Below are positions 45,629-50,060 of a stretch of 50,063 nt of DNA, one piece after another. Below the pieces are notes generated by a model that made no database searches, was not told the origin of the DNA, and saw only the letters and a list, made by a program, of their open reading frames with translations. Every line of letters begins with the position of its first letter. Positions within the stretch are counted from its first letter, which is position 1. The DNA is from a virus. The DNA lies in the IMG/VR virus record IMGVR_UViG_3300030102_004216, positions 1 to 50,063 of that record; one strand, given 5' to 3'. The position numbers and the translations under genes were made by a program.

Positions 45629-46351
45629 TTAACCCCAGTTAGGCATATCAGTGGCAATACTTTGCTTTTCTGATTCTGCTTTATCTGTATCAGGTGAAAA
45701 AGTTGGCTGTGGACTTGGCTGAGAAACAGACTGTTCAGTATTAACTGGTTTATTTTCAAAGAACTCAATAAATTTACTGTAATCTTGACCATCATCTGCA
45801 CGCAAAACACCCCAAGGGGCAACAGCGTTTTTATCTTTGCCCTTAACCATTTCACCAGTTGCCTTATCTTTATACATTTCTCCTTCTCGAAAATCGATTC
45901 GAACAACTGCATTGATGCCTTCAAGCTTAAAGTAATCATTACCGGGTATAAAGTTAGCAAGTATATTTTGAGCTTTCTCAGATTTATCAGTGCTTGATAA
46001 ACCACAATGAGACTGTATTAAACCTTTAATTTTTTGATGGGCAAATTTAATACCTTTTTGTTGGCCATCAGTCATTTCTCCAGAACAAGCGATATTTAGA
46101 TTATCCCAAATAATTCTTTTAAAATACTCACCACCTGTAATTTTGTAGGCTACAGCGATATAATGCATGCCGCCGTTTTGAGATTTTCTTAATAAATTAG
46201 CTGGGTAAGTTTCGCCATTAATAGTAACAGGTTCAGGTATAGTATTGTTTCTATCAATCTCCACTAAAACAGGAACAATAGTCCCGTCTGGAATAAGCGA
46301 AGGTTTATCATTTATTTGTGTATCATCTTCAAATTCATTAAAATTTACCAT
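45629..46351 (-). CDS. DUF669-like, probable single-strand DNA-binding protein
   Basis: The 240-residue protein opens MVNFNEFEDDTQINDKPSLIPDG and has a beta-rich core (TIVPVLVEIDRNNTIPEP, YIAVAYKITGGEYFKRIIWDNLNI, NAVVRIDFREG) followed by a flexible Gln/Ser/Pro tail ending in DMPNWG, similar in style to SSB tails. DUF669-type phage proteins replace or support SSB in recombination. The gene begins in a one-base stop/start overlap with the Sak4-like gene, which supports a joint role. Confidence 0.65.
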   Translation of the reverse strand: MVNFNEFEDDTQINDKPSLIPDGTIVPVLVEIDRNNTIPEPVTINGETYPANLLRKSQNGGMHYIAVAYKITGGEYFKRIIWDNLNIACSGEMTDGQQKGIKFAHQKIKGLIQSHCGLSSTDKSEKAQNILANFIPGNDYFKLEGINAVVRIDFREGEMYKDKATGEMVKGKDKNAVAPWGVLRADDGQDYSKFIEFFENKPVNTEQSVSQPSPQPTFSPDTDKAESEKQSIATDMPNWG

Positions 46352-47181
46352 TATTTATCTCCTTGATTATCATTTGAAAGTTTAGTTAAAAGTGCGTTTA
46401 GATCATTTGGCTCATAACCGTTTTCGTTTATAAGTTTAGAACGGCTTTTTGCCAAAGGATGAACCTCTGATCTACATAAAAATGTTCTTTTTTGAACAAC
46501 ATTACCGTCTTTATCTTGCTCAGGAACAAAATCATAAATAATCATTTGATCAACAATTCCAGGTAATTCTTGAGGTCCTTTTCTACCTTCCATCTGTAAT
46601 TGAAATTGTTCTCGGCCTAAATCATCTTCATATTTTTCTAAAATGCAGCAGAAAATAACATTTTTATCTCTGATGTGTTGCAAGTGAATTAACCATTCCA
46701 TAATCTCTCTACCCATTTGACCGTAAGCACCACGAGTATCTATAGCACCTGTCTTTGTATAATTGGCTGGGTCTTGTTTTGCATGTGTAAAGGCCAATCT
46801 TGATGCAACAGTTATACTATCAATGAATATGGTATCGCATTCTTGTAAAGCTTTATGATGCTCAGGAAACATTTTAACTACTTGCTCATACATTTCAGGT
46901 GAATATGCTTTTATATTATCATTTGATGTTGATTTAATAGCATTGTTTGGACCACCAGCTAAAACTGCAAGAGTTTTACATTCGTTCCAGTTTTCAGGCT
47001 GAAGGGTCAATCCTTTAAATGTTTGAACTGATAAATCTCCGGCCTCTAGGTCAACAAATATTGTTTTCTTTGGATTAAGTTGTAAAAGTAATGATGTCTT
47101 ACCAATACCAGGGGGTCCAGCAACAACTGCCTTGACCCCACTTTTTTGTTCTAGACGTTCTTTTGGTGTAACTAACTTCAT
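46351..47181 (-). CDS. Sak4-like RecA-fold ATPase (AAA_24)
   Basis: The 276-residue protein has Walker A GPPGIGKTS at 22-30, IFVDLEAGDLSVQTF (41-55), Walker B TIFIDSIT with D121, and a later IFCCILEKYEDD strand. This fits AAA_24 / Sak4 phage recombinases, short RecA relatives that promote strand annealing or exchange. Neighbours (SSB-like, Cas4-like nuclease) complete a recombination set. It starts two bases after the preceding gene of the block. Confidence 0.78.
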   Translation of the reverse strand: MKLVTPKERLEQKSGVKAVVAGPPGIGKTSLLLQLNPKKTIFVDLEAGDLSVQTFKGLTLQPENWNECKTLAVLAGGPNNAIKSTSNDNIKAYSPEMYEQVVKMFPEHHKALQECDTIFIDSITVASRLAFTHAKQDPANYTKTGAIDTRGAYGQMGREIMEWLIHLQHIRDKNVIFCCILEKYEDDLGREQFQLQMEGRKGPQELPGIVDQMIIYDFVPEQDKDGNVVQKRTFLCRSEVHPLAKSRSKLINENGYEPNDLNALLTKLSNDNQGDK

Positions 47182-47855: not shown

Positions 47856-48077
47856 ATGCAAGAAAAATGTTTAAACTATTCTACTGCTAGAATATATACT
47901 CAATCACTAGCTAAACTCAGAGTATTAGCAAAAGATAAAGGTAAATCTCAAATAAAAATGATTGATGAAATTATTAATACTTCTTGGGATCAACTTATGA
48001 AAAGTAAATCAGAAAGCGAAATTGATATCTTAGACAGCTCTCATATAAAAGTAAAAACTGGAATTGAAAGAGTTTAA
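47856..48077 (+). CDS. Ribbon-helix-helix-like small regulator
   Basis: The start is placed at ATG 47856, five bases after the AGAGGAG site; an ATG at 47841 would include the ribosome site itself. The 73-residue product has a strand-like ARIYTQSL followed by two helices (AKLRVLAKDKGKSQIKMIDEIINTSWDQLMK), the plan of Arc/MetJ-type ribbon-helix-helix repressors. It sits directly after a palindrome and one base before the methyltransferase gene, so autoregulation and control of that gene is a plausible inference. Confidence 0.58.
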   Translation: MQEKCLNYSTARIYTQSLAKLRVLAKDKGKSQIKMIDEIINTSWDQLMKSKSESEIDILDSSHIKVKTGIERV

Positions 48078-48078
48078 T

Positions 48079-48594
48079 ATGAGAGGCTTAGAACTATTTG
48101 CTGGTGTTGGAGGAATGTCTCTTGGCATGGAAATAGGTTTTGGCCAAGATTACGAGTGTGCTGCATTTGTGGAGAGAGATCCGTATTGTACAAAAGTTCT
48201 TAAAAAAAATTGGAAAGATGTACCTGTTTACGGTGACATAAAGGAGTTTAATTATGAAAAAGAAAGATCAAAAATCGGAGAAATTGACATTGTTCTTGGA
48301 GGATTCCCCTGTCAGCCTTGGAGTGGAGCAGGAAAGAGAAAGGGATCGGAAGATGACCGAGATCTCTGGCCGGAAATGTTACGAGTTATTAAAAGTCTCA
48401 CGCCCAAGGCTAGATGGATCATTGGAGAAAATGTGCAAGGGTTTGTTAACATGGAGATGGGACTCTCCCGTACGGTTGCTGACTTGGAAGATGCAAACTA
48501 CCAAGTTCAAACTTTCGTATTTGGTGCTGTCTCCGTCAAAGCCCGTCACCAAAGACAACGATGTTTTGTTGTGGCCCACTCCAAGAGCGACTAG
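48079..48594 (+). CDS. Cytosine-5 DNA methyltransferase, catalytic part
   Basis: The 171-residue product carries motif I (LELFAGVGGMSLGME, 4-18), motif IV with the catalytic Cys78 in GGFPCQPWSGAG, motif VI ENV (117-119) and motif VIII (HQRQRCFVVAH, 157-167), then stops. A normal C5 methyltransferase would continue with a target-recognition domain and motifs IX-X. Those appear in the following, out-of-frame gene. The ATG at 48079 is chosen because it starts at the conserved RGLELFAG; a TTG at 48064 is also in frame. Probably a two-polypeptide enzyme; a frameshift-broken gene is the alternative. Confidence 0.78.
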   Translation: MRGLELFAGVGGMSLGMEIGFGQDYECAAFVERDPYCTKVLKKNWKDVPVYGDIKEFNYEKERSKIGEIDIVLGGFPCQPWSGAGKRKGSEDDRDLWPEMLRVIKSLTPKARWIIGENVQGFVNMEMGLSRTVADLEDANYQVQTFVFGAVSVKARHQRQRCFVVAHSKSD

Positions 48595-49879
48595 CCGTAT
48601 GGCATATAGTGAGAAACCCTCTCCTTCTATGTTAAATGGAACACATGGATGGAGCCTTAATGCAGCTGTTACCGATAGTTTAGACGATCAGCCTAATAGA
48701 ATGTGGCCAACTCCTAAAGCAACAGACTACTTTCCTGGTGTAGGGCATTATGTAAAAGAAACAGATACAGGTTACTCTGTTACTAGAAAAAAAACAGGAC
48801 AAAAATTTGGTGCTAAATTAGCTGACGCAGTTTCTTACGAAGAGCATAAAATTTGGAGAACGCCAACCACAATGGATGGTAAGGATGATGCTTTAAAACA
48901 TGCAACTAAATTATTACAGGGAAAAAATAAAAGAGCGTCAGGTGAAATGGTACAGGTTTCTTTGGTTGATCAAGTAATGATTGAAGAAATAAAAAATGAT
49001 CCAGATTTATTAAATAACTTTAAAGATCATATTATGGTTACTAGGAATAAACTTCCTGAGCAGCAAGAGTTTGTAAAATATTTAAGAAGTCAGACATCTG
49101 TAAAAGAATTAAATGACAATACTGATATAAAGAGAACTACTATTGAGCATTGGTTTAGAAAAGATAAGGCTGGTTTTAGTCATCCATCTATAGAAGATTG
49201 GAATAAAATTAAACCATTTTTAAAAGAATTAAAATATGACGAAGAAATTACATCTGTTGAAGAAATAGAATGGACAGGAGAACCAGCTATTTTTCCAACA
49301 CCTAGAGCAAGTAATGGAATGAACGATTCTATGCACTCTGTAGAAGGCCAGTTAGAAAGAAAAGGTTATAAATCAAAATTAGAACAGGCTGTGTGTATGT
49401 TTCCTACTCCAACTGCAAGAGATTGGAAAGGTGCAAGAAAACCGGAAACATTAAAAAAGAAAGGAAGAACTGAGACTAATTCTCTTCCCGACAAAGTAAG
49501 AGCATTGGAAGATAGGCTGCATAAAGAATTATTTCCAACTCCTTCAGCTAACGAAGATCATGCTGGTAAACCAGGAAATAAAACACAAAAAATGTTAGGC
49601 AATGATCCAAGAGTTAGAGGCGAATCACCTAAAACTTTAAATCCAGCTTGGGTTGAATGGTTAATGGGTTTTCCAATTAATCACACAAGCATTGATGAAG
49701 AAGATGAGGTTCATTCAAATGTGTCTTATTGGGACATTGAACCTGATATACCTAGAGTAGCATCAAATGTTAATAATCGTAAGGATAGATTAAAATGTAT
49801 GGGTAATGCTGTTGTACCACAATGCGTAGCAGCTATTGCTGAGTGTATAAAGGAGGTTGAAGATGAAAATAATTTTTAA
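48254..49879 (+). CDS. Out-of-frame overlapping methyltransferase partner with PTP repeats and motif X
   Basis: ATG 48254 lies inside the methyltransferase gene (+1 frame) with AAGGAG seven bases upstream. The 541-residue product overlaps the first gene for 341 bases. Residues 38-110 (SGRKCYELL, DGSLEKMCKGLLTW, RLLTWKMQTTKFKLSYL, LLWPTP) resemble proteins I recall beside phage cytosine methylases. Six (W/F)-(P/R)-TP motifs stand at 107, 151, 201, 347, 383 and 427. A DNA-binding-like insert (NTDIKRTTIEHWFRKDK, 289-305) may read the target. NPAWVEWLMGFP (463-474) and CMGNAVVPQCVAAI (515-528) look like motifs IX-X. A start at 48599 is possible but lacks a good ribosome site. Confidence 0.7.
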   Translation: MKKKDQKSEKLTLFLEDSPVSLGVEQERERDRKMTEISGRKCYELLKVSRPRLDGSLEKMCKGLLTWRWDSPVRLLTWKMQTTKFKLSYLVLSPSKPVTKDNDVLLWPTPRATSRMAYSEKPSPSMLNGTHGWSLNAAVTDSLDDQPNRMWPTPKATDYFPGVGHYVKETDTGYSVTRKKTGQKFGAKLADAVSYEEHKIWRTPTTMDGKDDALKHATKLLQGKNKRASGEMVQVSLVDQVMIEEIKNDPDLLNNFKDHIMVTRNKLPEQQEFVKYLRSQTSVKELNDNTDIKRTTIEHWFRKDKAGFSHPSIEDWNKIKPFLKELKYDEEITSVEEIEWTGEPAIFPTPRASNGMNDSMHSVEGQLERKGYKSKLEQAVCMFPTPTARDWKGARKPETLKKKGRTETNSLPDKVRALEDRLHKELFPTPSANEDHAGKPGNKTQKMLGNDPRVRGESPKTLNPAWVEWLMGFPINHTSIDEEDEVHSNVSYWDIEPDIPRVASNVNNRKDRLKCMGNAVVPQCVAAIAECIKEVEDENNF

Positions 49880-50060
49880 TTTAATTATTTTATTTGTATT
49901 TGTCGGTTTTTTGTCTTTGTTAGTTGGCTGCACAACAACAGAAGATGTAGGTTGTGTTCCAATGTACATAGGCACAGGATATGATGACGAAGGAATGTTA
50001 ATGACAATTAAAGTAGAAGAACCGGGTTGCCCTCGTATTGATACATATGAAGACTATTAA
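49863..50060 (+). CDS. Small lipoprotein
   Basis: ATG 49863 has AGGAGG six bases upstream. The 65-residue product has a long hydrophobic signal (FNLIILFVFVGFLSLL) ending in the lipobox LVGC (Cys23), then TTTEDVGCVPMYIGTG and an acidic tail with two further cysteines. It overlaps the end of the methyltransferase-partner gene by 17 bases. Envelope modification or superinfection exclusion are typical roles for phage lipoproteins but nothing here proves one. Its stop forms TAATG with a new start at 50060 that is cut by the window edge. Confidence 0.65.
   Translation: MKIIFNLIILFVFVGFLSLLVGCTTTEDVGCVPMYIGTGYDDEGMLMTIKVEEPGCPRIDTYEDY

Follow-up and report, generated by a model that had tools for sequence, protein, structure and literature searches.

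The stretch of viral DNA analysed here (the window, 50,063 nucleotides, part of a 57,608-base virus record) carries two overlapping genes on the plus strand, which we call alpha and beta. Alpha runs from an ATG at 48079 to a TAG stop at 48592-48594 and encodes 171 amino acids, and beta, in the +1 frame relative to alpha, runs from an ATG at 48254 to a stop at 49877-49879 and encodes 541 amino acids. The two frames share 341 nucleotides (48254..48594), and an AAGGAG sequence (48241..48246), the putative Shine-Dalgarno (SD) site of beta, lies seven nucleotides 5' of its ATG. The original prediction had described this arrangement, and its coordinates, overlap length, frame and AAGGAG spacing were all correct on re-reading. 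Upstream, a 73-aa open reading frame (47856-48077) with weak family matches only is separated from alpha by a single base (TAA T ATG), a spacing that suggests a single operon. A Sak4-like ATPase (phrog_124, E 1.7e-35) is encoded on the minus strand at 46351-47181.

Alpha resembles the N-terminal part of C5-methyltransferases. It matches the Pfam DNA_methylase profile (PF00145) with an E value of 1.8e-38, covering only positions 1-164 of 324, scores above the cut-off of NCBIfam dcm and matches M.HhaI at E 1.8e-15. Motifs I, IV (PCQ), VI (ENV) and VIII (RxR) are present in the chain; motifs IX and X and the recognition region are absent from it and are located in the beta frame. Motif VI (48427..48435) and the motif VIII region (RHQRQRCFVVA, 48544..48576, placed by alignment A2) lie within the overlap, and so does motif IV (48307..48315), which includes the catalytic cysteine; both PCQ and ENV are invariant in alignment A2. 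From its start to position 49880, the alpha frame contains 65 stops, its own included, indicating that it is no longer kept open beyond motif VIII.

Beta matches PHROG 1008 (phrog_1008) at E 1.1e-36, and its residues 1-115 alone do so at E 2.6e-14; other betas match the same family. The N-domain (residues 22-95, 48317..48538), all of it dual-coded, is predicted by AlphaFold as two helices and a two-stranded hairpin, with a pLDDT of about 90 across most of its length. It is followed by a region of repeated (W/F)PTPxAxD modules (48566..49636), whose PTP is conserved in alignment A3 and which may serve in target recognition. Within this region, a helical insert (residues 237-333, 48962..49252, ..TTIEHWFRKDKAGFSHPSIEDW..) has a pLDDT above 90 in part and gave weak Foldseek matches, several of them to repressors; it is perhaps helix-turn-helix-like. 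The same insert is found in one nested relative (L048). The sequence LNPAWVEWLMGFP (49637..49675), at positions nearly invariant in the beta alignments, is motif-IX-like, and GNAVVP (49802..49819) corresponds to motif X, which nested relatives carry in alpha. Indeed, the end of the Pfam DNA_methylase profile (298-323) aligns with beta residues 508-533 in a sub-threshold match, and at E 0.1 no other Pfam or NCBIfam model was matched by the betas tested. The diverse beta alignment A1 was left out of the pattern searches. The model of the whole protein is of low confidence (pLDDT 61.5, pTM 0.35), its N-domain and helical insert being confident; a compact nested beta gave a pLDDT of 62.5. Foldseek searches of the PDB with both models returned no match at E <= 0.001, and a PDB sequence search with beta no convincing one; against a viral library, the best beta hit had an E value of 3.6e-3 and the second was a phage cytosine methyltransferase (E 0.049). 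The description of beta as a downstream partner of the methyltransferase thus holds, with the addition that beta also carries the missing C-terminal half: a recognition-like region, motif IX and motif X.

We then asked whether this arrangement is found elsewhere. With beta residues 1-115, tblastn retrieved 62 phage records (from phages of Paenibacillus, Lactobacillus and relatives), so that this part of beta, as the original prediction had anticipated, has homologues in phages as well as in PHROG 1008, and these homologues begin inside the overlap and not only after 48594. When all frames of the matching phage records were read, beta was found in the +1 frame within a complete methyltransferase; both frames are annotated in phage Leyra and alpha alone in the nested Lactobacillus phage Lc-Nu. 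Loci were also gathered, mostly by alpha similarity (80 viral, 80 from bacterial genomes and another 80 viral), and in 252 of the 253 with an alpha hit, the +1 frame matched beta at more than 20 bits; the beta HMM had been trained on 15 of the 253. The single exception (L006) has a +1 open reading frame of 834 nt and a beta score of 11 bits. Among the rows listed, open stretches of the +2 frame within the alpha domain measure roughly 50-240 nt. When 398 Bacillota genomes were searched with beta only, four hits came back, each overlapping alpha in +1, and no stand-alone beta was found in these genomes. Of 103 non-redundant loci, 99 have a plausible start candidate close to where beta begins, and in 65 of these 103 relatives an SD-like site of at least four bases precedes the beta start, versus 6 of 103 in a +2-frame control. 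The overlap has a median length of 789 nt and a maximum of 1602 nt across loci; most relatives have a far longer, fully nested overlap than the window. The earlier remark that a long out-of-frame overlap is rare does not apply within the dual-coded clade, where practically every relative examined has one.

Several loci depart from this pattern. In L019 (IMGVR_UViG_3300002242_002363), both alpha and beta are cut short, and beta passes into sequence of the alpha frame (..GLSRTVSDLENENYQVQ..). The pattern resembles an indel that made the two frames cross, in a broken copy or through an assembly error. In L299, an in-frame stop divides alpha in two while a 296-aa beta frame is intact. A distant nested relative in E. 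coli (L258, PCP07014, 1874-2635) is a prophage copy whose alpha is annotated with an internal stop, and its +1 frame has a stop at about the same place. Another relative (L257) had a match in only 4 of 5426 E. coli genomes.

An open second frame could be a by-product of the constraints on the first one. When the codons of the window alpha were permuted synonymously, the +1 frame was stop-free in 39 of 1000 permutations, and with an HMM built without the window's clade the real beta scored 126.7 bits against a mean of 65.8 and a maximum of 101.8 for the 1000 permutations. Among 93 loci outside the HMM training set, there were 86 in which none of 200 synonymous recodings of alpha scored as high as the real beta (medians 95.7 bits for the real beta vs 51.0 bits for the recodings). 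Beta similarity is partly inherited from alpha, since recodings still score about 51 bits; the idea that it is merely a by-product of alpha conservation is true to that extent, yet the real scores are higher. Moreover, 88 nested loci have no +1 stop across a median of 218 codons, and stop-free permutations amounted to 372 of 26,400 (1.4%).

Synonymous change in alpha is reduced across the overlap, which the original prediction had named as a test: synonymous codon identity is 64.7% there versus 49.9% before it, and is higher in the overlap in 93 of 108 disjoint pairs (p = 5.5e-16). Between the window and its nearest relative (L008), dS in alpha is 0.74 before the overlap and drops to 0.29 within it, and dN/dS in beta outside the overlap is 0.089. 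In 72 of 81 nested pairs, the beta frame is more conserved than the alpha frame past motif VIII, so that this tail of alpha has the look of a linker leading to motif X. The earlier count of codons ending in G or C (44 of 97 in the overlap against 14 of 54 before it) was close to our recount (46 of 113 against 16 of 58); this contrast is not significant by itself (Fisher p = 0.097) and was set aside as proof of dual coding. At the codon level, the comparisons show purifying selection on both the alpha and the beta frames.

Two forms of the system can be distinguished by their motif partition. In the nested form (202 loci), a motif X of the GNAVVP type ends alpha and LNPxWVEWLMGFP, which by position and likeness we equate with motif IX, ends beta. 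In the split form (12 loci: the window's clade, L108 and L198), alpha stops after motif VIII and motifs IX and X are both in beta. The other loci are truncated at a contig end or lack a match to one of the two motif patterns used; two of them (L175 and L251) have motif X in beta and no recognised motif IX, and are possible intermediates or frameshift products between the nested and split forms. The window is a rarer variant than the nested form. In a tree of 73 alpha rows, 52 dual-coded rows lie on one side of a branch (support 100/100) and 21 canonical methyltransferases, taken from one phylum sample and a small number of bacterial genomes, on the other. In a survey that labelled rows as dual at 600 nt or more, the +1 frames of the 21 canonical rows stayed open over no more than 315 nt of the alpha reading, and these genes are without a second frame. 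Within the loci sampled, the dual-coded genes form one clade, which spans Bacillota, Bacteroidota, Pseudomonadota, Verrucomicrobiota, Thermodesulfobacteriota and viruses. A single origin of dual coding is likely, not proved, because dual coding of the alpha columns could itself group these rows. Split forms occur at three places in the tree, so that, if the nested form is ancestral, there would have been at least three un-nesting events. The window's form probably goes back to an ancestor that was fully nested and carried motif X in alpha; this motif would have moved to the beta frame, after motif IX, and the alpha tail would have been lost afterwards.

Two-polypeptide C5-methyltransferases provide precedents. 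In M.EcoHK31I, the beta gene lies in another frame of alpha. This naturally split enzyme (accession X82231, named in PMC6174562) recognises YGGCCR and has motifs I-VIII and X in its larger polypeptide and motif IX in the smaller, whereas M.AquI (CYCGRG) has motifs I-VIII and part of the variable region in alpha and the distal variable region and motifs IX-X in beta (PMC3404938). Compared by description only, the partition of M.EcoHK31I is that of the 202 nested relatives and the partition of M.AquI is close to the window's. M.EcoHK31I and the window share, here at the sequence level, two polypeptides with motif IX in the chain that lacks motifs I-VIII; they differ in motif X, which is in alpha in the former and in beta in the window and the 11 other split loci, and in the dual-coded beta N-domain of the window, none being described for M.EcoHK31I in PMC3404938. 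Compared with M.AquI, the window beta starts about 110 residues earlier, inside the catalytic region of alpha. As for the closer relatives, PHROG 1008, the family matched by the window beta, is annotated as DNA methyltransferase, a name silent on dual coding. In the Paenibacillus larvae phage pair Leyra gp61/gp62, both proteins are annotated as cytosine methyltransferases and beta is nested in alpha; unlike the window, Leyra is fully nested with motif X in alpha. A comparative paper on 48 genomes lists both genes and, in the passages retrieved, does not discuss the overlap. Our literature search found no paper describing the dual-coded family; subscription journals and REBASE lay outside this search, and an earlier description is thus possible.

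Altogether, dual coding of alpha and beta is supported by homology, selection tests and phylogeny. We propose, with a probability of roughly 0.8, that a single phage C5-cytosine DNA methyltransferase is made of two subunits, one encoded by each of the overlapping frames. The simplest interpretation is an enzyme of two subunits, given that the recognition region and motifs IX and X are missing from alpha and present in beta. Alpha would be the SAM-binding and catalytic half, with motifs I-VIII, and beta would initiate independently at 48254, opening with a small domain overprinted on the codons of alpha motifs IV-VIII and continuing with the recognition-like region and motifs IX and X. A complete methyltransferase would exist only as the alpha-beta complex, and its role would presumably be to protect the phage DNA against restriction. 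Translation of beta, formation of the complex and methylation activity are what we infer from this arrangement.

Alternatively, ribosomes could shift into the +1 frame towards the end of alpha and thereby fuse motifs I-VIII to the C-terminal half of beta in a single chain, the beta start being unused. The window alpha stop does sit where the +1 recognition-like region begins, and such a fusion would have the canonical motif order. However, beta has its own SD sequence and start, the part of beta that precedes the junction is more conserved than alpha would require, and an informal look near the alpha stop revealed no obvious slippery sequence. Moreover, the 202 nested relatives have motif IX in +1 but motif X in the alpha frame again, so that a single shift would be insufficient for them, and we regard frameshifting as improbable. 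We give equally little credit to the idea that both proteins are made and that beta is a separate regulator or anti-restriction protein overprinted by chance: its N-domain has no known fold match and its helical insert could suit such a function, but beta carries motif IX (and in the window also motif X), which alpha is missing, and alpha alone has no recognition region either. It is very hard to believe that an ordinary gene was broken by a sequencing or assembly frameshift and that the overlap is accidental. Broken copies do exist (L019, L299 and the E. coli prophage copy), but the same split recurs in several contigs of the window's clade and, elsewhere in the tree, in L108 and L198, and for this recurrence in independent contigs and clades we reject a sequencing error; the dN/dS of 0.089 and the synonymous constraint also argue against a broken gene.

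Long same-strand gene overlaps in double-stranded DNA phages and bacteria are thought to be rare, and many are disputed. For the alpha/beta overlap, which covers hundreds of codons in a common enzyme family, the support comes from homologues in both frames, selection at the codon level, start signals and a tree. We are inclined to see here one ancient same-strand overprinting, of up to about 1.6 kb, kept throughout a clade that occurs in phages and in the genomes of bacteria from at least five phyla; its second frame would be an obligate, mostly unannotated recognition subunit, and several lineages, the window's included, would be escaping the overlap by transferring motif X to the second frame. 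The occurrence of nested and split forms side by side opens the relief of an overlap to study. Across this large clade of phage and bacterial genes the double reading is mostly unannotated. Since gene finders often drop the inner frame, the subunit responsible for reading the DNA sequence may be missing from the annotated methyltransferases of the clade, and cloning the annotated protein alone might therefore give an inactive enzyme.
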